This document shows positions 9,001 to 51,700 of a DNA stretch of 64,000 bases, piece by piece. Below the pieces are notes generated by a model. The model was not told the DNA's origin. It worked only from the letters and a program-made list of their open reading frames with translations, and did no database searches. The position numbers were made by a program, and so were the translations under genes. Source of the stretch: Arenicola marina (Eukaryota; Annelida; Polychaeta; Arenicolidae); NCBI GenBank assembly GCA_964019135.1, contig OZ025260.1, positions 23,120,254 to 23,184,253 on the forward strand, in the 5' to 3' direction. Every line of letters starts with the position of its first letter. Positions within the stretch are counted from its first letter, which is position 1.

Positions 9001-10405
9001 GCCATGGCCAGCGTGGGTTGATGCTCGGTCCAGGCTCTGGTGATCGATGAGGTTCTTAGTGTGATGCCATGGCCAGCGTGGGTTGATGCTCGGTCCAGGC
9101 TCTGGTGATCGATGAGGTTCTTAGTGTGATGCCATGGCCAGCGTGGGTTGATGCTCGGTCCAGGCTCTGGTGATCGATGAGGTTCTTAGTGTGATGCCAT
9201 GGCCAGCGTGGGTTGATGCTCAGTCCAGGTTCTGGTGATCAATGAGGTTCTTAGTGTGATGCCATGGCCAGCGTGGGTTGATGCTCGGTCCAGGCTCTGG
9301 TGATCGATGAGGTTCTTAGTGTGATGCCATGGCCAGCGTGGGTTGATGCTCGGTCCAGGCTCTGGTGATCGATGAGGTTCTTAGTGTGATGCCATGGCCA
9401 GCGTGGGTTGATGCTCGGTCCAGGCTCTGGTGATCGATGAGGTTCTTAGTGTGATGCCATGGCCAGCGTGGGTTGATGCTCAGTCCAGGCTCTGGTGATC
9501 GATGAGGTTCTTAGTGTGATGCCATGGCCAGCGTGGGTTGATGCTCAGTCCAGGCTCTGGTGATCGATGAGGTTCTTAGTGTGATGCCATGGCCAGCGTG
9601 GGTTGATGCTCAGTCCAGGCTCTGGTGATCGATGAGGTTCTTAGTGTGATGCCATGGCCAGAGTGGGTTGATGCTCGGTCCAGGCTCTGGTGATCGATGA
9701 GGTTCTTAGTGTGATGCCATGGCCAGCGTGGGTTGATGCTCGGTCCAGGCTCTGGTGATCGATGAGGTTCTTAGTGTGATGCCATGGCCAGCGTGGGTTG
9801 ATGCTCGGTCCAGGCTCTGGTGATCGATGAGGTTCTTAGTGTGATGCCATGGCCAGCGTGGGTTGATGCTCAGTCCAGGCTCTGGTGATCGATGAGGTTC
9901 TTAGTGTGATGCCATGGCCAGCGTGGGTTGATGCTCGGTCCAGGCTCTGGTGATCGATGAGGTGCTTAGTGTGATGCCATGGCCAGCGTGGGTTGATGCT
10001 CAGTCCAGGCTCTGGTGATCGATGAGGTTCTTAGTGTGATGCCATGGCCAGCGTGGGTTGATGCTCGGTCCAGGCTCTGGTGATCGATGAGGTTCTTAGT
10101 GTGATGCCATGGCCAGCGTGGGTTGATGCTCAGTCCAGGCTCTGGTGATCGATGAGGTTCTTAGTGTGATGCCATGGCCAGCGTGGGTTGATGCTCAGTC
10201 CAGGCTCTGGTGATCGATGAGGTTCTTAGTGTGATGCCATGGCCAGCGTGGGTTGATGCTCGGTCCAGGCTCTGGTGATCGATGAGGTTCTTAGTGTGAT
10301 GCCATGGCCAGAGTGGGTTGATGCTCGGTCCAGGCTCTGGTGATCGATGAGGTTCTTAGTGTGATGCCATGGCCAGAGTGGGTTGATGCCCGGTCCAGGC
10401 TCTGG
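1..10405 (+). repeat. 65-bp tandem array (about 160 copies, continues beyond the left edge)
   Basis: Unit starts GATGAGGTTCTTAGTGTGAT and ends GGCTCTGGTGATC. Period is exactly 65 bp from 1 to 5070, then a 10-bp duplication of TGATCGATGA, then 65 bp again to 10405 (last unit 60 bp). Common variants: A or G in CTC(A/G)GTCC, C or A in CCAG(C/A)GTGG. No spacers, no dyad suggesting CRISPR, and no long open frame because the unit carries stops. Homogeneous satellite/minisatellite, presumably in the TMEM131 intron upstream of 11598. Confidence 0.98.
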
Positions 10406-11597
10406 CATCCTGGTCTACGCTCGAAGTACGTATTACGTTGGAGACCATTGGAGACCCTGGTGAGATACATCTTGCTTGTCGCTGGGTGTAACGTAACGTG
10501 TAACGTGTCAGTGTGTTCTTTAACCTGCCGTCCTTGGCCCAAGCAACCAAGTCTCTGGTAAATTCATCTCGATTTAATTAACGCAAAATAATAATTGTAA
10601 GTACAGTCCAGGCCAGCTCGAAGCCTAGAGGGGGCACCCCCCCCCCCCCCCCAAAAAAAATGAATGGCTGGACGTCAAGACGTCACCGGCGGCGGCAAGT
10701 GTTCAGCCCCCCCCCCCCCTCCACTGTTTCAAGAAGCGGCTGCCAAATCAGTTTCTTATTGTTTCCGATGGTACTGTGGGTGCATGTATGGTGTAACCCA
10801 CCACCAATATCAATGTGGTCGACGATCACTCCGGTTTGGGTTGTGACCGGCCGTTAATGCCTGTTAATACGTATAGCCCGGTATTTATAGCCACTATCGC
10901 CACGTGCCGCGGACCGCTCGCTGATCCAACCGCAGCGGAATGTACTAAAAAATAACAGGCTCCTTTTTTTGTGTATGGATGGATTGCAGCCATGGAATAC
11001 CCCGCTGGAGTAAGAGGCTAATAACCAAGAACGGGTAGGAGTAAGACGTCCCGGGTGACCCCCCGCCCCCCCCCCTCGCCCCGCCGGCCCGCCCGCCCCT
11101 CACCGCTACCCAAACATCCAGGGTCCGTGAAAACAATCACAGAACGAGTATGAAGTGGGCCCCCTCCCTGTGTTTTTTAGCATCGCGATGGGAGGCACGT
11201 GGTTACGGAAGACGGAAGGGAAGGATATGGGCTCCTCCGACGTGTCTCCTGACTGCTGGGCAATCCGGGATACACGATGTCATGATGTCGCTGCGATTGG
11301 CAGCCGTTTTAATCCACATCCGAGTGATGAGCCTCCGTAGTTTAGTTGGTAGCGCACCGAGCTTCGGGCCGACGGTGCTGGGTTCGATCCGCGCTCGATC
11401 ACGCTCGGCATGCGCATCCCGCAAGCGATTCATGACGTCACATATCCTTTTCTTCATCGTCCCAGGAGGTTCCTTGACCTGGTTTAGCTTTACGTGTACA
11501 CAAAGTTGGCTCAAAACACCATTCAGATCAGCAGGTTATTTTGCCTTGCATTGCTAATCCTACCGGCATGTAACATTCTCCACTTTTTTCGTTGCAG
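10406..11597. other. Intron, mostly unique; C-runs; no exon recognised
   Basis: Holds poly-C at about 10636-10652 and 10708-10718, a C-rich stretch at 11059-11100 and a SINE relic (11331-11521). I looked for the exon that precedes PPGGNTSF (family motif FHASFF...) and did not find it here. Confidence 0.6.
11331..11521 (+). mobile_element. tRNA-derived SINE, type B, degraded
   Basis: tRNA-like head with A-box-like TAGTTTAGTTGGTAGCGC and B box GGGTTCGATCC, followed by a body ATCGTCCCAGGAGGTTCCTT and a GTGTACACAAAG tail shared with 12984, 22610, 29185 and 59868. Internal pol III promoter type. Superfamily of the body not assigned. Confidence 0.7.
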
Positions 11598-11711
11598 ATG
11601 GTGCCGCCTGGCGGTAACACATCGTTTGAGGTGGTTTTCTTGGCCAGGCAGGTTGGCATTGTGGAAAACACCCTCTTCATACACACCTCCCAAGGGTCCT
11701 ATCGATACCAT
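11598..11711 (+). CDS. TMEM131: TMEM131 exon a (PPGGNTSF...VENTLF)
   Basis: 114 bp, phase 0 at both ends. Acceptor TTTTTTCGTTGCAG, donor CAT|GTAAGT. Encodes the end of the N-terminal PapD-like domain: MVPPGGNTSFEVVFLA, then VENTLFIHTS, ending YRYH. The donor is the first of 23 tandem copies (mirage minisatellite 11712-12871), so the exon end is chosen by homology: the next residues of the family are VFG, supplied by the following exon. The ATG at the exon start is internal, not an initiator. Confidence 0.92.
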
Positions 11712-13811
11712 GTAAGTACAGCTGCCATTCACAGTAAATCTCAAGTTAACTATCGATACCATGTAAGTACAGCTGCCATTCATAGTAAATCTCAAGTTAA
11801 CTATCGATACCATGTAAGTACAGCTGCCATTCACAGTAAATCTCAAGTTAACTATCGATACCATGTAAGTACAGCTGCCATTCATAGCAAATCTCAAGTT
11901 AACTATCGATACCATGTAAGTACAGCTGCCATTCATAGTAAATCTCAAGTTAACTATCGATACCATGTAAGTACAGCTGCCATTCATAGTAAATCTCAAG
12001 TTAACTATCGATACCATGTAAGTACAGCTGCCATTCATAGTAAATCTCAAGTTAACTATCGATACCATGTAAGTACAGCTGCCATTCATAGTAAATCTCA
12101 AGTTAACTATCGATACCATGTAAGTACAGCTGCCATTCATAGTAAATCTCAAGTTAACTATCAATACCATGTAAGTACAGCTGCCATTCATAGTAAATCT
12201 CAAGTCAACTATCGATACCTTGTAAGTACAGCTGCCATTCATAGTAAATCTCAAGTTAACTATCGATACCTTGTAAGTACAGCTGCCATTCATAGTAAAT
12301 CTCAAGTTAACTATCGATACCATGTAAGTACAGCTGCCATTCATAGTAAATCTCAAGTTAACTATCGATACCATGTAAGTACAGCTGCCATTCATAGTAA
12401 ATCTCAAGTTAACTATCGATACCATGTAAGTACAGCTGCCATTCATAGTAAATCTCAAGTTAACTATCGATACCATGTAAGTACAGCTGCCATTCATAGT
12501 AAATCTCAAGTTAACTATCGATACCATGTAAGTACAGCTGCCATTCATAGTAAATCTCAAGTTAACTATCAATACCATGTAAGTACAGCTGCCATTCATA
12601 GTAAATCTCAAGTCAACTATCGATACCTTGTAAGTACAGCTGCCATTCATAGTAAATCTCAAGTTAACTATCGATACCTTGTAAGTACAGCTGCCATTCA
12701 TAGTAAATCTCAAGTTAACTATCGATACCATGTAAGTACAGCTGCCATTCATAGTAAATCTCAAGTTAACTATCGATACCATGTAAGTACAGCTGCCATT
12801 CATAGTAAATCTCAAGTTAACTATCGATACCTTGTAAGTACAGCTGCCATTCATAGTACATCTCATGTCAATGGTAACGCCTTCATCGGTTACTAAGCAA
12901 GTACCCCTTTCCCAAGTGAGATCATGTTGAGATAGTAGTATTGTTATAATATATGTGACTACATAGTTCACCATTACATTCAGAGGGGAGCGATCTTCTT
13001 GGTGACATGGTTAGCGTACTAGACCACATACCAGTAGGTCCCATGAATCTGGGCCCGGGCGCCGAATCTGAGGCACGTGGTGTCATCCGCTCAATCTGGG
13101 GCCTGTGTCATTCATTGGGAGGTTCATTGGAGGCCCAGTTTTAACCCTTATGTGCGCAAGCACTGCCTAAAATACCGAAGCATTCATTGTACAACAGCTT
13201 CTACGCCGTACGGGGCCGGCCCGGTAGCTCAGTGGCCACGTGAGACCCAAACGGCACGTGGATCGATGGTCCGCGGTGGCCAGGTCTGTTTGGTCGCAGG
13301 ATAAAGATTCCATGTCCTTCTTCGCAAAAAGTAGGAGGTTACCCCCGGGTGCATGGCTCCACTCTTCCCTTCCTTCTCCCATTGACGCGATATGATCAGA
13401 AGTGGTTAAAGCGTCCTGAATATACAACCAATCTACGGCGTGCATATGATGTGTAACATGTATGTATCTTATCGTTCCAGGTATTTGGTATCGGTGTTCC
13501 GAACCCTTACAGAGTGCGACCCTTCTTAGGGGCCAAAGTCCCAATCAATAGCAGCTTCTCTCCACTCATACAAATGCACAACCCACATAGTTCAATATTG
13601 CAGGTAGGTGAATCACCACCCCCCCCCCCCTGCCTTTACGGCCCCTTCTCACCTTGTAATAAAGTTTGGACAGACAACACGCAAGAAAAGAGCCTACATA
13701 GAGGCCAAAACATTGCCTTTTTTTTTATTCCGGTGTCATGTAAATTGGAATTTAAGTATTCGCAATTATGAAAACTGTCGTAGTCATCTTCATAGCCACT
13801 TGAATGAATGA

Positions 13812-13857
<46 letters not shown>

Positions 13858-16800
13858 GGGTTTTATTATTGGGTTACGCATATCATGATTGACTGAGTGA
13901 ATATTGTTTCACCCTGAATTCGTTTCGGTGGAATGTCTATGTAGAACGTACATAGATATTTTGGAATCCATCTGTGACCGAGATATGCATATGTAATTAT
14001 CGCCCTTAGGTTGAAGAAATATACACGAGTGGTGGGGATTTACACCTGGAGCTACCCACCGGGGAAAAAGAGGCTTCACGAGAACTCTGGGTGAGTGTCC
14101 ATGGATACGGTAACAACTGTGCAAGATAATTAGTTTTAAGAAAGTTGAATGAGGTCATGACGAAGGAATATTCATTATTATTGCGACCGACATATCGCCA
14201 GTTGATATATAGGTAAGCGTTTTTATAGAATAAATCAAACATGATCTGTTATTCATGGTTGGTTAGGCAAGTGGAGAATGGAGGTAGCGGTCAGGAGGGA
14301 TCCGATATCCTGGTCCCGACCCACGTGACCAAACAAAAACCACGTGATCGATAATATAGATTCCCTCCTATGTTAGATTCAGGGATTGCTCAATTTCAGT
14401 TTTTCACCCAAGCCCTGTCGATTGTCACTGGTGTCTGGTTGTGGTTACCAGCCTCTTTGTTCTCCTCACACAGTCTTTAAGCTTTCTTTTTTATTACTTG
14501 TGTTGACTACGATGCTTGACCCATTTTTTGTCTAATGCTTATACTAAGCCATTGATGTTACAGGAGATACCTCCGTACGAGACTAAACCCATTATGAAGG
14601 CCAGCTTCGTGGGTCGAATAGAAAACAACCACACAGCTTTTATACGAATAAAAACCAACAAGGAGCGTAAAGATGACATTCTGGTGCTCCCCGTGGAGGT
14701 CGAGGTTTCTTCAGGTACGGCTTGATGACGTCATGGGTTGTTACAGACATATGTTTGTGACGTCATCATTCATTAAATCTGTGACTATGACGTTCTTAAA
14801 GACGTCATTTTTGCGACGTCATCATTTATTGAACATGTGTCTATGACGTCACCATTCATTGTATACTTTACGTTGACGTCTTCGTCATTGAAGACCTTTG
14901 CCTTGTGAAGTCAATCTTGCGTTGAATATGTAACTTGCATACTTTTAGTGAATTTCTGACGTCATCATTTATTTTTTGACGTCTTCCGTTCAAGTTATAA
15001 TGATGATGTCATTATTCGCTGAAGATGTAAGGTTGGGACGAGTTGAAATAATTTTTGAGTTGTGTATTACCTAATTTATTGAAATCATTTCGATGTTTAA
15101 GGGCTCTTTATTTTACTATTTTGAGGCTTAATTTACGGTTTTAAAGTACGGGAAAACCTCTGTAAATGATCGATTTCTCAAGTATTAGGGTTAGCTCAGT
15201 AACACTATTGTTGCCTATTTAATAATCGTTCGCTGTATTTGCCTCCTACGCAGATCCCGGTCTATATTCGCCGTTAGAAATGCTCGACTTCGGCATTCTT
15301 CGGACACAAGACGAGCCTCGAGTGTTGCGGCTCAACGTATTGCACTCTGGGAGCAAGTCTATACACATAACGGTAGGGGGCGCCACTCACCCAGCTCCAA
15401 CCCTAGGCACCATACTTTTCTGAGCCTGTTCTAAGCCTGCATAATTGTGAATTGCTTCATATCGAATGATACTCATGAATTTAAAATTTTTAAAGTTTTT
15501 TTTTGTCATGTTTAATTTGTACTTTGTTCCGATATTAACCATGGATGACTTCTTCCCGCAGAATATAACGGTGGAACCTCCCAACCCAGCAATCACCATA
15601 GAGTTCAGACCCACGCAGTTACGGCCTGACATCCTCCACCCCACCACTGTGGCCCTCATTTCATTCAATGGTCAGTACACGGTGTGCCGCACAAAAGTTT
15701 AGAAATTAAATTTTAAAAAACAATGATATTGCTGTGTCGCGTTAGCCATCGTTTTTGTACACGCTAGCGACCGTTCTGCTTGTGTCATTTTTGCGGTTGT
15801 GCTTCGGTCCATCTGCGTTATGACCCTCCACAACTTGTGTTTATGTTGATACAGAAAAGATGAAATTATACTTGAGCATGTCTTTGGATAGTGTTTCTAT
15901 AAATGAGATAATGTATGGATCTCGACTTCCTAATTTTTTTCTGTGCATATATATAACTCTCGGTTTGTCTTGAGTTAATTTAGAAATCAATTACTTATTA
16001 CTAGATGGTCTAAAAGTCCGTTTTGCGTCATTTTAGCGTCAAAAGCGAGGCAGCCGAAGTACTGGAGTGGTAACCTGGTAGTCAAGTCGAAGACTGATCA
16101 ACAGGTGGCCATACCGTACCAAGCCATGGTGCTCAAAGGGTGAGTCTAACGGCACGGCTGTATCAGATACAGCTGGTGGCCATACCGTACCAAGCCATGG
16201 TGCTCAAAGGGTGAGACTAATGGCAGGGCTGTATCAGATACCGCTGGTGGCCATACCGTACCAAGCCATGGTGCTCAAAGGGTGAGTCTAACGGCAGGGC
16301 TGTATCAGATACAGCTGGTGGCCATACCGTACCAAGCCATGGTGCTCAAAGGGTGAGTCTAACGGCAGGGCTGTATCAGATACAGCAGGTGGCCATACCG
16401 TACCAAGCCATGGTGCTCAAAGGGTGAGTCTAACGGCAGGGCTGTATCAGATACAGCTGATGGCCATGCCGTACCAAGCCATGGTGCTCAATGGGTGAGT
16501 CTAACGGCAGGGCTGTATCAGATACAGCTGGTGGCCATACCGTACCAAGCCATGGTGCTCAAATGGTGAGTCTAACGGCAGGGCTGTATCAGATACAGCA
16601 GGTGGCCATACCGTACCAAGCCATGGTGCTCAAAGGGTGAGTCTAACGGCAGGGCTGTATCAGATACAGCAGGTGGCCATACCGTACCAAGCCATGGTGC
16701 TCAAAGGGTGAGTCTAACGGAAGGGCTGTATCAGATACAGCTGGTGGCCATACCGTACCAAGCCATGGTGCTCAAATGGTGAGTCTAACGGCAGGGCTGT

Positions 16801-19800
16801 ATCAGATACAGCTGGTGGCCATACCGTACCAAGCCATGGTGCTCAATGGGTGAGTCTAACGGCAGGGCTGTATCAGATACAGCTGGTGGCCATACCGTAC
16901 CAAGCCATGGTGCTCAATGGGTGAGTCTAACGGCAGGGCTGTATCAGATACAGCTGGTGGCCTATTTCCAGTACATACTTTAGCCGGTTACGGCGCCTAG
17001 TCGGCTAAAATCGCCCATCATTTACATGATAAGTGCAGCCGGGTCGTATGCTAAATTGCGTTCGTAAAATCCACGACAGGTGGCTGGTCAAGGAATGTCC
17101 ATCTAAATATCGACTTCCAAACTATTTCCTGGACATTTACTGCCTGATGTTGTCTAATAGAAATATGTATTGTCATTATTAGTACGATCGCTTTAAATGG
17201 CAAAGAGGGGCCGCCTCGATAGCTCAGTGGGTTAGAGCGCTCGCTCAAGCCACCTGAGAGCCTAACGGCACGTAGATTGGTGGTTCGAGCCCCGCTGTGG
17301 CCGTTTCTTTGTCGCAGGATCAAGATTCCATGTCCTTCTTCGCAAAGAGTAGAGGGTTACCCCCATGGACATGGCTCCTCTCTCTCTTCCTTCTCCCATT
17401 GACGCGATATGACCAGAAGTGGTTAAAGCGTCCTGAATATACAACCAATTAAATGGCAAAAAAAAGGCATTCCCATGTCTGATGACGTAGTGAAATAGAA
17501 CGCCCCTTACAGATATGCCCCTGCAGCTTTTTTCACACTATTCATTTTCGTTTAACCTAATTCTACCTTAATTTCCGTTAGAATAATTTTCAGCGTTTCG
17601 TACTGGAAAAATAACTAGTAAATTTCCAAGGCAGCATCGTCTGATATAAATTCAGCACTTTCGTTACTGGGTTGTTGACCGACATCACATAATGCTTAAT
17701 GTTACCTGCGGCTGTGGCCGGCCCGATAGCTCAGTGGGTTAGTGCGCTCGCCTTGAGTGCTCTGGCCACCTGAGAGCCTAACGGCACGTGGATCGGTGGT
17801 TCGAGCCCCGCTGTGGCCATGTCTGTGTGGTCGCAGAATAAAGATCCCATGTCCTTCTCTTACAAAGAGTAGAGAGTTACCCCCGGGGACATGGCTCCAC
17901 TCTCTCGTCCTTCTCCCATTGGCGCGGTATGACCACAAGTCGTTAAAGCGTCCTGAATATATACAACCATCCATGTTATCTGACGCTGTGTGTGTGTGTG
18001 TGCTCCCGCAGGTCGCTGGGGTATGACGTCAACGGGACGCTGTTCTACACCGGGGAGTCTCCGCCACAGAACATCTCGCGAGAACTGCCGCTCACCAACG
18101 CATTCAACTTCACGCTGGTCGTCTACAATGTCTCACTGGGCAGTGAGATGCTGCAGTACTTCTCGGTAAGCAGCTGTGTGGGTTACGGTGTGAGGCTACC
18201 GTTTTACTACATTATTTAACTAATTGCCAGAGATAATGTCTGTGAGGCGCATATTACGATGGATACACATTATAACGATGTTTGTAACTGTGCAGTGCGA
18301 TTTGTATAGCGTGTATTTGATTTTTTACCAATAATAATATTTAAAAAAAAAAAAAGCTGTGTGGGTAGCGCCCTGGGACGAAGGAGGGGTGGGGGGGGGA
18401 GGAGGCTGCGTAGCTCTGTCCATAGCTTCATAGTTATGGTCGTGGGTTCGATCCTCGCAGCCACTCTGTCTTGGGGAAAATAGTCGCATATACATACAGT
18501 ATTACAGACAGCCTTTTAACGCCAAGACCATGTGTATGATAAGGCCAGCGCATGTCTCTCTCTTAGCCTCTACCCATTGCCCCATAGACGACTTATGATA
18601 GACGCCAATCATAGTTTAGGTTACTCCACTGTGAGGCGCCACTGCATGTGCAATGCATTCTGGGTATTATTTTGGTCTTTGCGAGATGACAAGATGGCGT
18701 CATCGCATGACAACGTATTTTGTAGACACTTAAACATGCAATATTGTAATCTATGTAACAGAAAATGTACGTAATCTGGATGTAAGTTAGACCTGCTCAT
18801 AATTTTTATGTATGTCTTGAAAATAACCTGGAAATGCGGTATTTATCTCCATAGAAAAAACAACAAGATAACACCAAAATATTTCCCAGAACTCTTTGCG
18901 CCAGTCACGCTTTTTCCAAGATGGCGTATAATTGCGATGTCGTGTATTGTGTGCGATATTTATGTGTCTGGCCTTGACCTGACCTTGATCTGACTGACCT
19001 TGTTCCGTCCGCAGCTGGAGAACTTCCACAAGCCGATGTTCCTCCAGCCAGACAAGACGTCGGCGGCCTTTAGTCTGCGGTTCGATCCCAAGGGGGTACA
19101 TCTCCACTTTACCTCCTACATCACGCTGCACACCAACGCCTCTCTCTTCTACATTCCCGTGCACGTGTACAACGGCAGACTCAAGGTGAAGGTCGTTGTA
19201 ATGTCCCCCTCCCGGTTCATTGTAACCCGCTTGGCTCCAGTTGCGCTTAAATTTGTCTTTGTTAAGCGTTCTCAATGGTTATTACAGCTGTCAGCAGGGT
19301 ATTAGCCAGAGACCCGCCTGCCGGCAGTTTAAATTTGGGCGGGCAGATTTTCAATTTGATAGGCACTTGGGTGCTGTGTATTTACCCGCCCAAAATTAGG
19401 CAAAAAGGGCCTTTTTGTCAGGAGGTTTAGAAGAAAATCATAGCGCTCACAATTTTATATGACATCGTGAACTACTTTTTTTAATAGATTTGTAAATTGC
19501 GAGCTCAAAATGTGACCTGATCTGCTGGCGCCATGTTGTGTGTGTACACTGAACACTTCTGGCTATTCTGGCTAATACCCTGGATGTTAGACATACAGAT
19601 ATGAGGTAATCTCCCTGTGGCTCAGTCGGTAGCGCACCGAGCTTTTATATCGACAGATCCGTCTGAAAACGTCCAACAACGGGTCTCCCTTGCCTTGTCC
19701 GGCTTAACATTACGCAACGACATCGGACGCGCACATATGTAGTACCTAACTGTATTTTGAGTGAGTTCCTTGTGTAGTGGTTAGCGCACTGGACTGCATC

Positions 19801-22800
19801 CGTTTATCATCCCGGGAAGTTCTTTGGCCCAGTTTAGCCATAGTGTACGCAAACGCGGCCTAAACGCATATGCCTTCCATAGCTATGGGGCCGGCACGAT
19901 AGCTCAGTGGGTTAGAGCGCTCGCCTTGAGTGCTCTGGCCACCTGAGAGCCTAACGGCACGTGAATCGATGGTTCGAGCCCCGCTGTGGCCTTGTCTGTG
20001 TCCATGGTTCCTGGATAAAGATATCATGTCCTTCTTCGCAAAGAGTAGGGAGTTACCACCGTGGACATGGCTCCGCTCTTCCCTTCCTTCTCCCATTGAC
20101 GCGATATGACCAAAAGTAGTTAAAGCGTCCTGATATATACAACCGGCCTTCCATAGCTGTGTTGACCTGCCTGACAGCCACGCCTGTATGTTGTTATGTA
20201 TGGCACGCCGTGTGCTTCAGATCGTTCCCCACCGACCTGAGCAGTCCAAGGGATCGCTGGACTTCGGGACGCTAGGCATCAAGGAGCAACGCGCCATGAC
20301 CTTTACTGTCAGAAACAACAACCCTGTAGATGTAAGTCCTCATTATTACTGTCAGAAACAACAACCCTGTAAATGTAAGTCCTCATTATTACTGTCAGAA
20401 ACAACAACCCTGTAGATGTAAGTCACTCGCTTTATAGATACAGGTACCCTTATTATGGGTGAGGTTAATGAACCACCCTGTACAAGTCCCACACTTTATA
20501 GATTACCTCATTATTTTTGAAGTCCGTGACGTCACTGGGAGTGGCCCTGACCACAAAGTAATTGGAAATGGGCAGGGGTTTTTCGCAGTAGTTATATAGA
20601 ATGTGTCCCAAGTAAGTCTGAAACTGGTTGCCTATTCTTTTTAAAGGGTCCTATATCTTTTCCTCTGGTTTGTCTTTTCTTGACCATCGTATTAGTTACA
20701 CAGAACAACTCCGAACGAAGAGATTGCCATGAACTTTTCTGATTGTTTTCCTTCTCCAGATTTTAATTACCGAATTCCGAGTTTCGAATTTGGGGGAGAC
20801 GAGTATTGAACTTCTCGGTGTGGAGAAAGGCAACGGCACCAGCCTGACCCAGAAACACAACATCACCGAGAAGGACATCAACCCGGTAAGCGCTGCTCGC
20901 CTCATCGCCTTGTGTCTCCGCCAGATGGCGCCACCATACGGCGGCCGATATAACCTTGTCGGGGACCGTATTGTCCGAGTCTCCGCGTCGTGACCAATGT
21001 GTCTGCCGTATTGATGGCTACTATAGTCATATCTAATTGGAATAGCCTGAGGATTTACTCCAGACCTACCATCAATATAACTGTGATATGAGTCCGGCAA
21101 ATGTAATGCGGACGAAAGGGACGAAGTTATTGGCAATACGGCACCTGAAGATGTAACAAGAATGAATAGAATGGAACATCATTCGTGTGTGACATCCATG
21201 TTTTCATTTCTGTTATTTTTGATTTTGTCATTTATGTTAACTTCTTCACTCTGTCATTTATGTTAACTTTTTTCTCTGTCATTTCTGTGGATTTCTTGAT
21301 TATCTCACATGTGGTTTCGGGTCACAAATCCACACACATATATCCATTTACCATTTAAATACCGTGCATTTAATATGTACCATGCGTCTGAGGTCGAAAA
21401 ATACGTTCATGGACTTCTTCCAATAGTCCACACACACCCTTATTTCTTGCAATTTGTAATAGGTCACAGGTAAAGCCTAAAAGTGCGAGAGCAATATTTG
21501 GCATTGCAATTGCAATTATACGTATTATACGCCATTTGCAATTTCTGTCCATTTCTCGGACCGTCGCACTCACCGTTTGGCACTCTCCTTCAGCTGACTC
21601 TGCCGCCCAACCACCTGGCGGTGTTTCGCGTCAACCTGGTTGCCCCGGATACGGAGGGATCCTTCCGGCCCGAGGTTGTCATGTGGACGCGTTTCGACAT
21701 CCTACCGCAGAAGCTGCAGAAAGAATCTGTAAGCGAGCCATCCACTGGTCCTCACTTCATGCTCCCTTCTCAAGCTATTTATATATGCGTGGCTTAGTCC
21801 CCTGTCCATCCATTTCCGGAGCCATTGTGCCTCCCAGAATAGACTCTACAGCGTGTCATATGTTTATTGCCGAAGTTTTGGATTTTTTTTTTTTTTTTTT
21901 TTTTTTAGGGGGTGGGAGGGGAGGTTTGGTTTTTTTATATAGATTATAGATCCATACGGAAGTGTAGAAGTCTAACGAATATACAGATGTGTATGAACTT
22001 ATGCGAGCATCGCGATATGTCATCATGACGCTTGAATCCTCTTATCATTATATCCTCTCATCGCATGACGCTCAAACCGAAACCGGTGCATTGGGTTCGG
22101 GAATGACCTTGATCTTATCTTGAGCGTGACCTTGATTGGCGTGACCTTGACCTTTGCAGAGTCTCTACGTGCCGATCACGTTCACCACGGCGGCGGGCAG
22201 TTTAACGTCGATTCCAGATCGGATTGTGATGGAACACTGTTTCCCGGTAAGTTATCGGAGGAGGAGGAAATTATGGGTCTCATCATGTACATTAATTAAT
22301 ATAGCCTTTGCTATTGTCACCGCTGTCTGTATAAAGGTGAGATCCTGTTGCTAGACGAGGACATGGCTCCACTATCCCTTCCTTCTCCCATTGACGCGAT
22401 ATGACCAAAAGTGGTTAAAGCGTCCTGAATATACAACCAACCTGTTACTAGAATTACTTTAAATAATAAACTTAAATGGAAATGTATCTGCCCCCGAAGA
22501 TGTGTGTGACCTGTTACTGAAATGACTTCGTAACAAATGTATCTTCCCCCCGAAGATTTGTCTGTTACCTCTTTCTTTATGATGTTAGTGGAGGATGTTT
22601 CGAAGGTGTGGTCATGAACTCACATCTCAAACGGCCTCCTGCTTATCAATTGGTAAACAGGCTGAGCTGAAGATCAACGGGTCGTGGGTTCGAACCCCAA
22701 TACCGGCCTCTGGGTCAAGTTTCAAGTTTCTTGTATCTCCATTTCTCTGGACCCAGTTTAGGCTTCATTTGTGCACACAAGTGGCCCAAGAGACCAATAT

Positions 22801-31800: not shown

Positions 31801-34800
31801 CAAGAATGACAGCGTGCTCGCTGGTCGTGACGCTCGATATGACGTCAATAAAGAAATAAACGATACAAAGTTGCAAAAATCATGAGTGCACATCACGCTC
31901 ATCACTTCGCCTTGCTAGCAGGAGCAAGGATTTAGGAAAGGGCGGGGGCATTGTAGATGTACTGGTAAAGCCTAAAGTATGTACCATGGATACCCAAATT
32001 GTCGGAGTGCGTAAACATGGTAAAATATATGTAGTAAATGGTCGAATGTAGAGTTGTCACAGAATAGCAAACTTAGACATAAGCGATATCGACTTCGCCC
32101 ATTCACTTGCTGTTCAACTTAGCTTGTCACTTCACCAGGACAAATTTAGATAAAATGCTAGAAGTTTAAGAAAATCGAAGCGACACATTCACAGCAACAT
32201 TGATAGATATATATTATGTTATTGCGCTACATTCACGTGCAACCCGCGATTCCAGACATCAATATTATTTCAGCGATTACGCAAAAACAGTCGCTTCGAT
32301 TTTACAGAAATTTCCGCACTTTAAAGGGAATGCCATGATCAAGTGACATGCCAAATATTACAGAAATCGTATGGGCAGTTATTGTTTTGTTGCATATGGA
32401 GCGTAACATATTCGAGGCACTTACGTACAGCGCCAAAACCATCGCTTCGACTAGGGTTAATTTTGAATGCACATTAACAGATAACTTTATTGCTGTACAT
32501 GTATTAGATCTAAATTTATTTATATGATAATATAAATGTCTCGCTTCGATTTTCTCCGCTTTATCCTAAATATAATAATATAGGTTACTAAAGCAGTTGA
32601 TGGTGGGGGGGGGGGGTGTCGGTGTCACTTGTACGTATAGCTCGCTGCTAAGTAACATCTTTGATGCATTGCGTCACAATACATTTGACGTCACTTAATT
32701 AGCAACGCGCGCTTAGATTGGAACAAAGACGCTATTTTAGCTGCACTGCGGCCTGATAATGATACCACAACATATCCATATAAACACCTTATTGTTGTTG
32801 AGATTCGTGAATAGATCTTCACGAAGCCTAACGATCCGCTGTCGGAGCCTTCGTCGAAATAAGTGACTCGCCATGAAAATTGCCACCATGATTACTGACT
32901 AGTTGCGACTAGTTGCGAGACGTATGAACACATCGCAAATTTTGCGATGAAAGTTAGGAAGATCTTTATCCTAAGTTTTCGAGAATACCACTTGCGATGA
33001 AACGCAACTTTTGGGATTTTTCGCAGCAATATTTGCGAGGATGTGTATTATCAAACTATATAATATATATATATATATATAATATGTATATATAGAAATA
33101 TATGGAAATTATCAAAGTATACAATGTATATATAAAGTATATATCAATATTTGCGAGGAAGCCCAGTATTGTATTGTGTTGACGTGAGTGCGTTGCTCTC
33201 CAGCGGGTCACCAGTGGCTGTTGGGCTCCACCCTGGACAAGGAGGTGGCCGACACGGACCAATACCTCTACTCCAGGTTTCGGCAGCTCTGGCTCGAACT
33301 CGTCTCCAGCCACGCCTCTGTGTAAGTCAGTCACATCACCATAGCAACCTATCTGTATCTGTAAGTCCGCCACATCACTATGGCAACCTATCTGTATCTG
33401 TAAGTCCGCCACATCACTATAGCAACCTGCTTATATCTGAGTCAACCACATCACTATGGCAACCTCTATATCTTACATCTCAGTATGGCAACCTATTGAT
33501 ATATACTTTATATATACATTGTATACTTTGATAATTTACATATATTTCTATATATACATATTATATATATATATATTATATAGTTTGATAATACACATAT
33601 TTATATATATATATCCTACCGTGTTGGGTTTAAGAGCCTACACGCCGCCATGGCTCGCCACGAGTGCCCGATGGTCAGCTTGACGTCACCCGACCGTAGA
33701 TCTGTGCCCTCCTTACCCAATGTGTCCACTTCCTTCTCCAGCGTCAACGTGACCATGCAGCTGGACACCAACAAGGTGCTGGGGTTTTTGTTCCCGGCTC
33801 AGGCCCGGCTGCACTGGCCGTCCCTGGCCAGACCCAAGGCCATCAGCTTCAATCTCACGCAGATTGGAAACATATCAGTGAGTACTACTGGTTGTAGTGG
33901 TAGCAACTGGGGCTGTTTTATCATCGACAAGCGCCGCTGACAACCACAGCTGTCTATTGCCACCACCACCCGTGCCACCTTTGCCCCCACCACTCCCACC
34001 CTCCCTCCATGCAACCGTGTTCATGCCGCCACCACCCTCCGCCACTACCGCCCTCCGCAACCACCAACCTCCACCTCCACCTCCACCCTCCGCCCTCCAC
34101 CACCACGCCCTTCCGGCCAACATTCTCCACGACCACCCTCCACCTTCGCCACCATGCAGCCCCACCATGCCCTCACCACTGCCCCCCCACCATCGCCCCC
34201 CCCCCCTTGTTACATCACTATGTCTAATCTTAAGTGTTAAGTGATTCTCCCGCGAATGGGTCAAAGGTAACTTCCTGCTCACCATGAAGTGGCAACCTGT
34301 CTTGATTAATCGTACTATGCACCACCAACCCCTCCATCCCACACCACATCTCCTCCCCCACCCGCCCCCACCACCAACCCCTCCACCCCCACCACCAACC
34401 CCTCCACCCCCAGCCCCACCACCAACCCCTCCACCCCCACCCCCACCACCATCCCCTTCCCCCACCACCAACCCCTCCACTCCCACCCCCACCACCAACC
34501 CCTCCACCCCCATCCCCATCACAAACCCTTCCACCACACCACCACCTCACCAACTTGACTGACTGTGTGACAGCATTGACATCATAAGTCCTCGCTCTGA
34601 TCCACTTGGTCGGGTCGTAGCAACAGGATGAGGCAAAAAACACTGATATAGCACACACCGATTGTCAAAGAACGGGAGAATGTGGCTCTGAATCGATTGC
34701 CTTTATTAACAGGACATGCCAATTAGAACTGCAGCCCCGGTGTCCCTTATTTGCCATGATTGACTCTGCAGTAACGGTAACATATGCATAGTAAGGCGAC

Positions 34801-37800
34801 AGATTACAGGCAACAGATTGACAGATCATTGTGTACAATTCCTGCTGGTGCTTTTGGTCTTGCCCCGTAGAGAGCCTTGCTGCTCTCAAGGCAAGATTTA
34901 TAGATTCTCGTAAACACAATCTGTTTAAATGTAATCCCCGATGTCTTATCATTGTTGTATCATTGTTTTATCATTGTCTTATCATTGTTGTATCATTGTT
35001 TTATCATTGTTTTATCATTGTCTTATTATTATTGTATCATTGTTTTATCATTTGATTTATATCCTGGGGTTATAGATGTGATCCATCTACCCTGTAAGAA
35101 CCCACAAAATGTATTATTGTAGTAAACGTTAGGCGTGAGTAATACGTGAGATATGCTTAAACAATGATGTTCGGGGTTCCATGGGATAACGGCCATAGAT
35201 GTTTGATGATCATTGTCAAGGCACATTGTCCGGAATATGACTTGGGTGAAACCTTCAGGTTGGAGACTAGGGGATAAAGCCCTTGATGTGTCAGCATCTG
35301 TTGTACTCATTCGCAGCCTTACGCAGCACAATTGACTTGATGCCATGTCCCTTCGCTGTGTCTGGGGCAACGAGGAACGCATGGGTGTGGTATTAATTCA
35401 TCGTTTTGACCCATTTTGTCTTTCTCTTCCTTGCAGATATCAGAGTTTGTGTTGGAGAATCCAAGCCACACCCCTGTGATAACACAGATCCTGCCCCTGT
35501 CTCTCTACCCCAGCCCGCACACCGTCCTCGACCTGATAGAACCTGACAGTGGGTGAGTACCCCTCCCCCCCTGTCTCTCTACCCCAGCCCGCACACCGTC
35601 CTCGACCTGATAGCACCTGACAGTGGGTGAGTACCCCCCTCCCTGTCTCTCTACCCCAGCCCGCACACCGTCCTCGACCTGATAGAACCTGACAGTGGGT
35701 GAGTACCCCCCCCCCCCCTGTCTCTCTACCCCAGCCCGCACACCATCCTCGACCTGATAGAACCTGACAGTGGGTGAGAACCCCCCTCCCTGTCTCTCTA
35801 CCACAGCCCGCACACCGTCCTCGACCTGATAGAACCTGACAGTGGGTGAGTACCCCCCTCCCTGTCTCTCTACCACAGCTCGCACACCGTCCTCGACCTG
35901 ATAGAACCTGACAGTGGGTGAGTATCCCTCCCCCCCTGTCTCTCTACCCCAGCCCGCACGCCGTCCTCGACCTGATAGAACCTGACAGTGGGTGAGTACC
36001 CCCCTCCCTGTCTCTCTACCCCAGCCCGCACACCGTCCTCGACCTGATAGAACCTGACAGTGGGTGAGTACCCCCCCCCCCTGTCTCTCTACCCCAGCCC
36101 GCACACCGTCCTCGACCTGATAGAACCTGACAGTGGGTGAGTACTCCCCCCTCCCCCCACATTTTCATCTTCACTTCCGTCGCCATCTTGAGGCGCCATC
36201 TTGAAATGAATTGTAATGCAATCGCTGTCCTCAATGGTACTTCTCGGTATTAAATACAACGTGAAACACATTAGACAGGCAAACTGAGTAGAAACTCGGG
36301 AAGTCTCGTTGGATTATTGGGTAGTCTCGTGAAATCTCGTGTAGTCTCAGACAGGCTCGTGTAATCTCGTGCATAAACGTGGCCTGAAACACCACATGGT
36401 CATGTCGTATTTTATCAATATTACCGGTTGTTTTCTCCCCCAGCATTTCCAGTGACCTCACTGACTTCTTGGACTCAGACGGCACTGGTGTCTTCGTTTT
36501 ACCAGATCTCATAGCTCAGAATAATGTAAGTATACATTTTTGCGTATTACTCCACGTACTTTGCCGCCCCCCCTCTCCCCCTTAGGGGGTCGTTTTAAGG
36601 GGGGGGGGGGGAGGGTCACCTTAACCATACAATGGCTTCCATATACTAAACATGTACTAGTATGCCGGGCGCGTACAGATTTGTATATGTAGTCACAGGA
36701 TCTCGCCACTCATTACGGTCCGAAAATGACGGCGTTATTTACGTCATATCCAATAAAGAAACAAATGGTTTATCATAACACGCTCACAGAATGACGTCAT
36801 CTTGCCTACGTCATAATAACCAGAGATCCTGTGCTTATAGTAGCAGTCATTGGCGTCAAGGGAAAGGGAGAGCATCGTGTCTTCGAGATAGTTGACTATT
36901 CTTTTCGAAAGATGCCATGATATCCTTATCCTACGCACGGGGTGGTGCTCGTTTGATATAGTACGTAGAGGCGACTCTTTGCTTAGTCCGTGGATTTCAG
37001 AGTGTACCAGCGATATTCTCAGAACATTTCTATACAGGCAAAGAAGGGAAGCTATTAAGGGAGGTATCCCTGAACGTGGCTCTTCACTTACTCTTTCATA
37101 CGATGATAACAATAACATAAGTATTACAAAAAAAGAAGTAATTTGTATTATGATTTCCGTCATTAGTTTCTGCTATAACCTTGACGTGTGTTATCTCTCC
37201 TCCACCCCCGCCCTCTGTCACCCCTCTTGCCCCCTGTCACCGCCCCCCCCCCCCCCTCCAGCTGCCGACCCCTGAGGTTGCCCAGCACCGGGAGCTGCTG
37301 GAGAACACGCTGGGGGTGAAGCCCCACCGTCAGTCCATCACCTTACTGCTGAAACCAGGCGCCAAGGAGACCGTCAGGGTCAGCTTCCAGCCCAGGAACG
37401 ACCTCCCGCAGACATCGCTCATACTAATACGGTCAGTGCCCGACCCCGGACTGCCCCAAGTGCCAGACCGCCCCCAGTGCTAGACTGCCCCCAGTGCCAG
37501 ACCGCCTCCAGTGCCAGACCGCCCCCAGTGCCAGACCGCCCCCAGTGCTAGACTGCCCCCAGTGCTAGACTGCCCCCAGTGCCAGACCATACTGCCCCCA
37601 GTGCCAGACCGCCCCCAGTGCTAGACTGCCCCCAGTGCCAGACCATACTGCCCCCAGTGCCAGACCGCCCCCAGTGCTAGACTGCCCCCAGTGCCAGACC
37701 GCCCCCAGTGCTAGACTGCCCCCAGTGCCAGACCGCCCCAGTGCTAGACTGCCCCTCAGTGCCAGAGCATACTGCCCCCAGTGCCAGACTGCCCCCAGTG

Positions 37801-46800: not shown

Positions 46801-48735
46801 GCCGATTCAATCCTCATTAACTAAATTAATCCACCTCCGGGGGCAGGCAGGCGACACAACTCGCATGCCGGCCCCCAGGGGCGGATTAATTTAGCATATA
46901 TATATGATCAGAGATTATTCCCTATAGTATACGATCTCTGACATGCAGGCCCCAACTCGGTCAGTAGGAATCACATTTTGTAATTGTATGCTACATTTAG
47001 CCAAATAAAAGTTATGCAAGAATGACAGCGTGCTCGCTATGTACTGGTAAAGCCTCCGACAATTTGGAGAAGGATTTAGGAAAGGGCGGGGGCATTGTAG
47101 ATGTACTGGTAAAGCCTAAAGTAGACTTTAGGCTTTACCAGTACATCTATACCATGGATACCCAAATTGTCGGAGTGCGTAAACATGGTAAAATATATGT
47201 AGTAAATGGTCGAATGTAGAGTTGTCACAGAATAGCAAACTTAGACATAAGCGATATCGACTTCGCCCATTCACTTGCTGTTCAACTTAGCTTGTCACTT
47301 CACCAGGACAAATTTAGATAAAATGCTAGAAGTTTAAGAAAATCGAAGCGACACATTCACAGCAACATTGATAGATATATATTATGTTATTGCTCTACAT
47401 TCACGTGCAACCCGCGATTCCAGACATCAATATTATTTCAGCGATTACGCAAAAACAGTCGCTTCGATTTTACAGAAATTTCCGCACTTTAAAGGGATTG
47501 CCATGATCAAGTGACATGCCAAATATTACAGAAATCGTATGGGCAGTTATTGTTTTGTTGCATATGGAGCGTAACATATTCGAGGCACTTACGTACAGCG
47601 CCAAAACCATCGCTTCGACTAGGGTTAATTTTGAATGCACATTAACAGATAACTTTATTGCTGTACATGTATTAGATCTAAATTTATTTATATGATAATA
47701 TAAATGTCTCGCTTCGATTTTCTCCGCTTTATCCTAAATATAATAATATAGGTTACTAAAGCAGTTGATGGTGAGGGGGGGGGGGTGTCGGTGTCACTTG
47801 TACGTATAGCTCGCTGCTAAGTAACATCTTTGATGCATTGCGTCACAATACATTTGACGTCACTTAATTAGCAACGCGCGCTTAGATTGGAACAAAGACG
47901 CTATTTTAGCTGCACTGCGGCCTGATAATGATACCACAACATATCCATATAAACACCTTATTGTTGTTGAGATTCGTGAATAGATCTTCACGAAGCCTAA
48001 CGATCCGCTGTCGGAGCCTTCGTCGAAATAAGTGACTCGCCATGAAAATTGCCACCATGATTACTGACTAGTTGCGACTAGTTGCGAGACGTATGAACAC
48101 ATCGCAAATTTTGCGATGAAAGTTAGGAAGATCTTTATCTTAAGTTTTCGAGAATACCACTTGCGATGAAACGCAACTTTTGCGATTTTTCGCAGCAATA
48201 TTTGCGAGGATGTGATTATCAAACTATATAATATATATATATATATATATAATATGTATCTATATATAGAAATATATGTAAATTATCAAAGTATACAATG
48301 TATATATAAAGTATATATCAATATTTGCGAGGAAGCCCAGTATTGTATTGTGTTGACGTGAGTGCGTTGCTCTCCAGCGGGTCACCAGTGGCTGTTGGGC
48401 TCCACCCTGGACAAGGAGGTGGCCGACACGGACCAATACCTCTACTCCCGGTTCCGGCAGCTCTGGCTCGAACTCGTCTCCAGCCACGCCTCTGTGTAAG
48501 TCAGTCACATCACCATAGCAACCTATCTGTAGCTGTAAGTCCGCCACATCACTATGGCAACCTATCTGTATCTGTAAGTCCGCCACATCACTATAGCAAC
48601 CTGCTTATATCTGAGTCAACCACATCACTATGGCAACCTCTATATCTTACATCTCAGTATGGCAACCTATTGATATATACTTTATATATACATTGTATAC
48701 TTTGATAATTTACATATATTTCTATATATACATAT

Positions 48736-48766
<31 letters not shown>

Positions 48767-51700
48767 GTTTGATAATACACATATTTATATATATATATCC
48801 TACCGTGTTGGGTTTAAGAGCCTACACGCCGCTATCGCTCGCCACGAGTGCCCGATGGTCAGCTTGATGTCCCTCGACCGTAGATCTGTGCCCTCCTTAC
48901 CCAATGTGTCCACTTCCTTCTCCAGCGTCAACGTGACCATGCAGCTGGACACCAACAAGGTGCTGGGGTTTTTGTTCCCGGCTCAGGCCCGGCTGCACTG
49001 GCCGTCCCTGGCCAGACCCAAGGCCATCAGCTTCAATCTCACGCAGATTGGAAACATATCAGTGAGTACTACTGGTTGTAGTAGTAGCAACTGGGGCTGT
49101 TTTATCATCGACAAGCGCCGCTGACAACCACAGCTGTCTATTGCCACCGCCACCCGTGCCACGTTTGCCGCCACAACCCCCACCCTCCCTCCATGCAACC
49201 GTGTTCATACCACCACCACCCTCCGCCACTACCGCCCTCCGCAACCACCAACCTCCACCTCCACCTCCACCCTCCGCCCTCCACCACCACGCCCTTCCGG
49301 CCAACATTCTCCACGACCACCCTCCACCTTCGCCACCATGCAGCCCCACCATGCCCTCACCACTGCCCCCCCACCATCGCCCCCCCCCCCTTGTTACATC
49401 ACTATGTCTAATCTTAAGTGTTAAGTGATCCTCCCGCGAATGGGTCAAAGGTAACTTCCTGCTCACCATGAAGTGGCAACCTGTCTTGATTAATCGTACT
49501 ATGCACCACCAACCCCTCCACCCCCAGCCCCACCACCAACCCCTCCACCCCCGCCCCCACCACCATCCCCTTCCCCCACCACCAACCCCTCCACTCCCAC
49601 CCCCACCACCAACCCCTCCACCCCCATCCCCATCACAAACCCTTCCACCCACACCACCACCACCAACTTGACTGACTGTGTGACAGCATTGACATCATAA
49701 GTCCTCGCTCTGATCCACTTGGTCGGGTCGTAGCAACAGGATGAGGCAAAAAACACTGATATAGCACACCCGATTGTCAAAGAACGGGAGAATGTGGCTC
49801 TGAATCGATTGCCTTTATTAACAGGACATGCCAATTAGAACTGCAGCCCCCGGTGTCCCTTATTTGCCATGATTGACTCTGCAGTAACGGTAACATATGC
49901 ATAGTAAGGCGACAGATTACAGGCAACAGATTGACAGATCATTGTGTACAATTCCTGCTGGTGCTTTTGGTCTTTGCCGTAGAGAGCCTTGCTGCTCTCA
50001 AGGCAAGATTTATAGATTCTCGTAAACACAATCTGTTCAAATGTAATCCCCGATGTCTTATCATTGTTGTATCATTGTCTTATCATTGTTGTATCATTGT
50101 TTTATCATTGTTTTATCATTGTCTTATTATTATTGTATCATTGTTTTATCATTTGATTTATATCCTGGGGTTATAGATGTGATCCATCTACCCTGTAAGA
50201 ACCCACAAAATGTATTATTGTAGTAAACGTTAGGCGTGAGTAATACGTGAGCTATGCTTAAACAATGATGTTCGGGGTTCCATGGGATAACGACCATAGA
50301 TGTTTGATGATCATTGTCAAGGCACATTGTCCGGAATATTACTTGGGTGAGACCTTCAGGTTGGAGACAAGGGGATAAAGCCCTTGATGTGTCAGCATCT
50401 GTTGTACTCATTTGCAGCCTTACGCAGCACAATTGACTTGATGCCATGTCCCTTCGCTGTGTCTGGGGCAACGAGGAACGCATGGGTGTGGTATTAATTC
50501 ATCGTTTTGACCCATTTTGTCTTTCTCTTCCTTGCAGATATCAGAGTTTGTGTTGGAGAATCCAAGCCACACCCCTGTGATAACACAGATCCTGCCCCTG
50601 TCTCTCTACCCCAGCCCGCACACCGTCCTCGACCTGATAGAACCTGACAGTGGGTGAGTACCCCCCCCCCCCCCTGTCTCTCTACCCCAGCCCGCACACC
50701 GTCCTCGACCTGATAGAACCTGACAGTGGGTGAGTACCCCCCCCCCCCTGTCTCTCTACCCCAGCCCGCACACCGTCCTCGACCTGATAGAACCTGACAG
50801 TGGGTGAGTACCCCTCCCCCCCTGTCTCTCCACCCCAGCCCGCGCACCGTCCTCGACCTGATAGAACCTGACAGTGGGTGAGTACCCCCCCCCCCCCTGT
50901 CTCTCTACCCCAGCCCGCACACCGTCCTCGACCTGATAGAACCTGACAGTGGGTGAGTACCCCTCCCCCCCTGTCTCTCCACCCCAGCCCGCCAACCGTG
51001 CTCGACCTGATAGAACCTGACAGTGGGTGAGTACCCCCCCCCTGTCTCTCTACCCCAGCCCGCACACCGTCCTCGACCTGATAGAACCTGAGAGTGGGTG
51101 AGTACCCCCCCCCCCGTCTCTCTACCACAGCCCGCACACCGTCCTCGACCTGATAGAACCTGACAGTGGGTGAGTACCCCCCCCCCTGTCTCTCTACCAC
51201 AGCCCGCACACCGTCCTCGACCTGATAGAACCTGACAGTGGGTGAGAACCCCCCCCACCCTGTCTCTCTACCCCAGCCCGCACACCGTCCTCGACCTGAT
51301 AGAACCTGACAGCGGGTGAGTACCCCCCCCCCCCCCCCACATGTTCATCTTCACTTCCGTCGCCATCTTGAGGCGCCATCTTGAAATGAATTGTAATGCA
51401 GTCGCTGTCCTCAATGGTACTTCTCGGTATTAAATACAACGTGAAACACATTAGACAGGCAAACTGAGTAGAAACTCGGGAAGTCTCGTTGAATTATTGG
51501 GTAGTCTCGTGAAATCTCGTGTAGTCTCAGACAGGCTCGTGTAATCTCGTGCATAAACGTGGCCTGAAACACCACATGGTCATGTCGTATTTTATCAATA
51601 TTACCGATTGTTTTCTCCCCCAGCATTTCCAGTGACCTCACTGACTTCTTGGACTCAGACGGCACTGGTGTCTTCGTTTTACCAGATCTCATAGCTCAGA

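Follow-up and report, generated by a model that had tools for sequence, protein, structure and literature searches.

A mirage minisatellite with 23 in-frame splice donors at an exon/intron boundary of TMEM131 in Arenicola marina

Results

TMEM131 and the 51-bp array behind exon a

The window analyzed here is a stretch of 64,000 nucleotides of the Arenicola marina genome that carries TMEM131 on its plus strand, as the preliminary description had rightly assigned it. Exon a (11598..11711, 114 nt or 38 codons, phase 0 at its end) encodes the end of the TMEM131_like_N domain (PF12371, E 6.7e-8) and is preceded by AG and followed by GT. Exon b (13481..13603, 123 nt) is in frame with exon a and encodes the start of the second Ig-like domain (PF24495, E 1.3e-13). 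Domain scans of the plus-strand frames, with stops read as X, located the further domains PF24498 (around 19015-19170), PF24499 (three pieces, 35425-39371), and PF24501 (two pieces, 40072-40939) in this order, and nothing resembling TMEM131 turned up in the frames of 20001-29999. Fragments of a provisional human TMEM131 sequence match the window in the same order, with the best match across exon b (E 3e-22). A PDB search with exon b returned no solved structure at E 1, and no tRNA was found at 10400-33000. The GC content is around 40% in the less repetitive stretches, a value that, like the mirages, would also fit a lancelet; a search of the genome for the GFP family gave no match, its control being silent as well. 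Upstream of the two exons, a 65-bp satellite of around 160 copies with 98% matches occupies positions 1-10405 and ends approximately 1.2 kb before exon a.

The end of exon a is overlapped by a tandem array on the plus strand (11699..12865) for which TRF reports a period of 51, 22.9 copies, 98% matches, and a score of 2243, which rules out a chance tandem repeat as its origin. This array contains 23 GTAAGT hexamers starting at 11712..12834, and all 22 spacings between them are exactly 51 bp with none of the 23 hexamers mutated, so that the number of donors and the step proposed previously are confirmed. The unit does not start at the donor of exon a as had been described, since the array begins at 11699 and thus 13 bp inside the exon. 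Each unit accordingly combines 13 exon bases, the first 13 being the end of exon a, with 38 intron bases. Tandem repeats that cross an exon/intron boundary and include its splice signal in their units have been called mirages, and this earlier classification stands.

We scored donors and acceptors with a generic weight matrix. On this scale, 18 of the 23 donors reach 9.5, including donors 1 and 2 with equal scores, and the five with CTT before the GT reach 7.5. The last donor (12834..12839, plus strand) belongs to the latter with its weaker context CTT|GTAAGT, and its unit 23 carries 4 differences. The frame of exon a is open from 11598 up to a stop ending at 12896, in agreement with the claim that the unit length is divisible by three and that no stop occurs in this frame. 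Splicing from a later donor would therefore keep the frame and add 17 residues per unit as had been suggested, but the added copies would not all be identical: units 10 and 18 give YQYH, and units 11, 12, 19, 20, and 23 give RYL. The reappearance of units 10-12 as units 18-20 suggests that a block of 8 units has probably been duplicated inside the array. The unit is also open on the minus strand (11523-13010), where it forms a probably spurious frame of 495 residues. Folding of three units as RNA was unremarkable (z -1.45). When exon a plus the first unit was searched against the genome (867 Mb, 762 contigs), only its own locus and its own repeat units were among the best candidates scored.

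Joining exons a and b at donor 1 results in an alignment to the provisional human TMEM131 sequence with a single 1-residue gap and a score of 304, compared to scores of 282, 265, and 181 for joins from donors 2, 3, and 23, respectively. As the donor-1 join scores highest of the four, the conserved TMEM131 protein is, judged from DNA and this provisional reference, the donor-1 product. The boundary at the very edge of the array is thus the one that yields the conserved protein by comparison to the provisional human sequence and by the Pfam matches of exons a and b.

Sister arrays in the same gene

Besides the 51-bp array, four arrays (B to E, all on the plus strand) span TMEM131 donors in the window. 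Mirage B (16104..16962) has a 71-bp unit and 12 donors from 16140 on, and its exon shows a weak match to the provisional human TMEM131 sequence (E 0.04). Mirage C (20303..20424) has a 43-bp unit and 3 donors from 20332 on behind an exon that matches the provisional human sequence with E 6e-4. Mirage D (33321..33465) has a 39-bp unit with 3 intact donors from 33322 on, and its exon was placed by position and splice signals, with neither a Pfam match nor a match to the provisional human TMEM131 sequence at that place. The exons of mirages B, C, and D also gave no match when each was searched singly against Pfam. Mirage E (35495..36155) has a unit of 72-75 bp and 9 donors from 35553 on, 8 of them exact GTGAGT, behind an exon matching PF24499 (E 2e-9). 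Later donors would lead to an immediate stop in mirages B and E (TGA) and in mirage D (TAA), located one base past donor 1 in all three because this donor splits a codon behind its second base. Donors 2 and 3 of mirage C would shift the frame.

Two tandem copies of a 15.2-kb stretch that includes TMEM131 exons (28963-43999 and 44201-58872) show around 95-97% identity in long aligned pieces, with exactly 200 N lying between them (44000-44199). Most likely, these copies are two alleles that the assembly has put one after the other (false haplotype duplication); a heterozygosity of 3.2-4.2% is given for amphioxus in PMC12862219. The second stretch contains copies of mirage D (48495..48639) and mirage E (50595..51334), both on the plus strand and each probably from the other allele. 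Mirage E comprises 9.0 copies at 35495-36155 and 10.1 copies at 50595-51334, while another array comprises 36.8 copies at 42643-43839 and 28.8 copies at 57774-58712. If the two stretches are alleles, then array lengths differ between them, which fits unstable minisatellites. For the 51-bp array itself, only one allele was seen.

Two other repeats lie in the window. A 17-bp array (37434-38854; 37449-38854 according to TRF) starts around 15 bp past a GTCAGT donor that closes a later TMEM131 exon, and it is similar to what directly follows this donor. A 32-bp array of around 57 copies (23950-25762) is open in several frames, and its Pfam matches to FdhE and RecR look like chance.

Donor arrays elsewhere in the genome

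We located exons in the genome by profile, resulting in 264 matches to myosin head (77), dynein N1 (54), and kinesin (133). For 160 of them (68 myosin, 49 dynein, and 43 kinesin), chosen roughly by E-value, we viewed the donor side; matches with internal stops and kinesin matches on small contigs were mostly passed over when fetching by hand. The view downstream generally covered 1500 bases, or 500 bases in the case of 621-base stretches. Donor-spanning tandem arrays were found in 17 of the 160 sampled exons (95% interval 6-16%; 22 flagged and 17 accepted by eye). Their units measure 26 to 126 bp, between 2 and 25 donors are visible per stretch, and the first donor of each was chosen by eye. 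One candidate with two short copies (L121) and four with intronic or unclear repeats (L050, L084, L120, and L124) were left out of this set, and so were L030 and L033. This suggests that donor mirages are common in the sampled exons at about one exon in nine, with the qualification that these exons come partly from the same genes and are not fully independent. Some further arrays start no more than a few tens of bases past a donor (L011, L012, L050, and L058).

In a set of 80 exons viewed on both sides (60 myosin/dynein loci and 20 kinesin exons), 7 arrays span a donor and 1, a weak two-copy case, spans an acceptor (Fisher P 0.064; P 0.014 without the weak case). A larger comparison of non-identical exon sets gave 17 of 160 for donors against 1 of 80 for acceptors (P 0.008). 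The arrays therefore appear biased to donors over acceptors. This bias is not absolute, since an acceptor-side mirage exists in a published amphioxus globin gene (PMC3087553). One likely source is that an array at the donor would spare the exon, donor 1, and the acceptor, while one at the acceptor would set decoys before the true acceptor.

Frame-neutrality of the later donors

Among the 22 arrays, 5 from TMEM131 and 17 from the genome sample, only the 51-bp array has a frame-neutral donor 2 that leads into no stop. When every unit was shuffled around its donor hexamer, kept in phase, and the outcome was multiplied by one third for length, 2.71 such arrays were predicted, so that selection for frame is not supported. 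The offset of donor 2 is divisible by three in 4 of the 22 arrays. Its use would run into a stop or shift the frame in 21 of them, including all 17 outside TMEM131, where single later donors are also frame-neutral in L023 (1 of 6), L080 (1 of 5), and L106 (1 of 12).

The 16 arrays with enough units have lost GT or GC at the donor in 4 of 177 later units. A rotation test on these arrays placed donor variability at a mean percentile of 0.37 (z -1.78), which is a weak hint of conservation. This was not upheld by counting variable columns outside homopolymer runs (14 of 112 at donors versus 113 of 760 elsewhere, P 0.57), and we take the later donors to be under no significant constraint. The repeat peptide of the 51-bp array gave no significant sign of coding constraint, as 3 of its 7 distinct changes are synonymous and 4 are not (P 0.18). 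With fewer frame-neutral arrays than shuffling predicts and with later donors about as variable as the rest, it looks like the 51-bp unit is divisible by three and stop-free by chance.

Discussion

Choice among the 23 donors

We consider it probable, with good confidence, that the 51-bp array is a splice-neutral mirage minisatellite whose donor 1 is used exclusively or nearly so, and this is the best explanation that we can offer from the genomic sequence. A tandem duplication reaching from a point 13 bp within exon a into the intron would have been amplified to 23 units, sparing the original exon, its donor 1, and the downstream acceptor. By exon definition, the spliceosome would then pick donor 1 as the one that ends the 114-nt exon and pairs with this exon's acceptor, and the remaining 22 donors would leave with the intron. 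The length of the unit as a multiple of three and its lack of stops would be chance. This preference for donor 1 is favored because the joins from donors 2, 3, and 23 align worse to the provisional human TMEM131 sequence, because the four sister arrays stop or shift the frame at later donors, because all 17 arrays elsewhere do so at donor 2, and because the mirages of Adh and TnC were reported without aberrant mRNAs. From the sister arrays in the same gene it follows that later donors are normally passed over by the spliceosome, or else that what they produce is purged. Against the use of donor 1 stand its equal score with donor 2, the weak hint of later-donor conservation in the rotation test, and the single frame-neutral later donors of L023, L080, and L106. 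Work by Eperon from 1993 on competing donors also counts against it, since the intron-proximal donor can reportedly win when several are occupied by U1.

The preliminary description had left open whether the redundancy of splice sites is neutral or creates a ladder of protein isoforms, and neutral redundancy fits better. A ladder by design fares poorly given the single frame-neutral array against 2.71 expected and given the sister arrays. If several of the 23 donors were used, TMEM131 would be longer by multiples of 17 residues, and the set of isoforms would differ between alleles or cells because the copy number is unstable. This is distinctly unlikely in our view, although none of the 22 later donors is mutated, shifts the frame, or leads into a stop. 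The tandem array of human UBC is spliced stochastically (PMC10809524), and a public gene model of lancelet PGBD5 treats mirage-like repeats of 108 bp as coding sequence, with an exon of 57 residues, albeit without EST or mRNA support (PMC3902484). Conversely, frame-neutrality is not above chance, the sister arrays forbid similar behavior, the insert would land at the conserved junction of exons a and b, and published mirages were reported without disturbance of splicing. A weaker form of the same idea, which we regard as unlikely, is a low-level ladder of TMEM131 proteins with 17n additional residues. Rare use of later donors would not be purged by nonsense-mediated decay in this case because the 51-bp array is frame-neutral, and the composition of the ladder would follow the unstable copy number and differ between individuals and perhaps cells.

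The array could also be functional without any choice between splice sites if its many U1-binding sites strengthened exon definition or suppressed premature polyadenylation. This would be in line with the donor polarity of arrays (7 against 1 weak case in 80 exons, P 0.064), with the loss of GT or GC in just 4 of 177 later units together with the rotation hint, and with the finding that an appended 5' splice site raised the splicing of a test pre-mRNA (PMC8724738). However, donor columns are not significantly conserved, intact donors are also expected of young arrays, and the polarity can arise from selection against decoy acceptors, so that we judge such a role to be very unlikely. Predominant use of the last, intron-proximal donor, which would add around 374 residues of 17-residue repeats to TMEM131, agrees with a preference for intron-proximal sites described under multiple U1 binding but is hardly credible, given that this donor is weaker (7.5 versus 9.5), that its product is the furthest of the four compared from the provisional human protein (181 versus 304), and that TMEM131 would be destroyed at the sister arrays if they followed the same rule.

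With 23 donors in a row, 18 of them equally scored, and no frame penalty for a wrong choice, the 51-bp array is a natural experiment on 5' splice-site choice. The same gene provides the contrast, since its sister arrays stop or shift the frame when the wrong donor is chosen. cDNA of both kinds of array would thus measure how strictly the first donor is used in a setting where nonsense-mediated decay cannot hide errors.

Comparison with known systems

Human UBC, the nearest known system in which a ladder does arise, likewise consists of tandem units that each have a splice site and gives products of variable unit number; its AGGT sites lie between coding monomers and can serve as either donor or acceptor (PMC10809524). 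In contrast, the junction in TMEM131 is CAT|GTAAGT and its unit is mostly intron; there is no AGGT in the consensus of the 51-bp unit, which rules out dual-specific splice sites of the UBC type. Duplication across splice signals can move the limits of exons and introns in the Rogers model (cited in PMC3087553) and in human internal tandem repeats (PMC2812944), and the globin paper proposes that new introns can originate from mirages (PMC3087553). Unlike in such cases of intron gain or exon elongation, exons a and b of TMEM131 join as in the provisional human ortholog sequence, and no new exon or intron is evident.

The closest relatives of the 51-bp array are the mirages of amphioxus, i.e., tandem repeats over exon/intron boundaries that were named in Adh3 and are also present in globin, troponin C, and PGBD5 genes (PMC3087553; PMC3902484). 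The titles and abstract openings of the open-licence literature on amphioxus or Branchiostoma minisatellites contain no genome-wide survey and no TMEM131 case. In the globin paper, the Adh3 data and the authors' own RT-PCR suggest that splicing is undisturbed (PMC3087553), and the PGBD5 paper cites the mirages of Adh and TnC as cases in which no aberrant mRNAs arise (PMC3902484). As in the mirages of Adh3, troponin C, the globins BflGb6/BflGb9, and PGBD5, the 51-bp array repeats the boundary together with its splice signal. Amphioxus mirages have units of 10-72 bp in Adh3 and up to 150-160 bp in globins, and the mirages vary in length between haplotypes (PMC3087553; PMC3902484); the first repeat directly abuts the splice site in PGBD5 (PMC3902484). 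The 51-bp array is genuine and illustrates this known kind very well. What distinguishes it from the amphioxus mirages are its 23 near-perfect units, none of which has lost its donor or the frame, and its place in a gene with five donor arrays.
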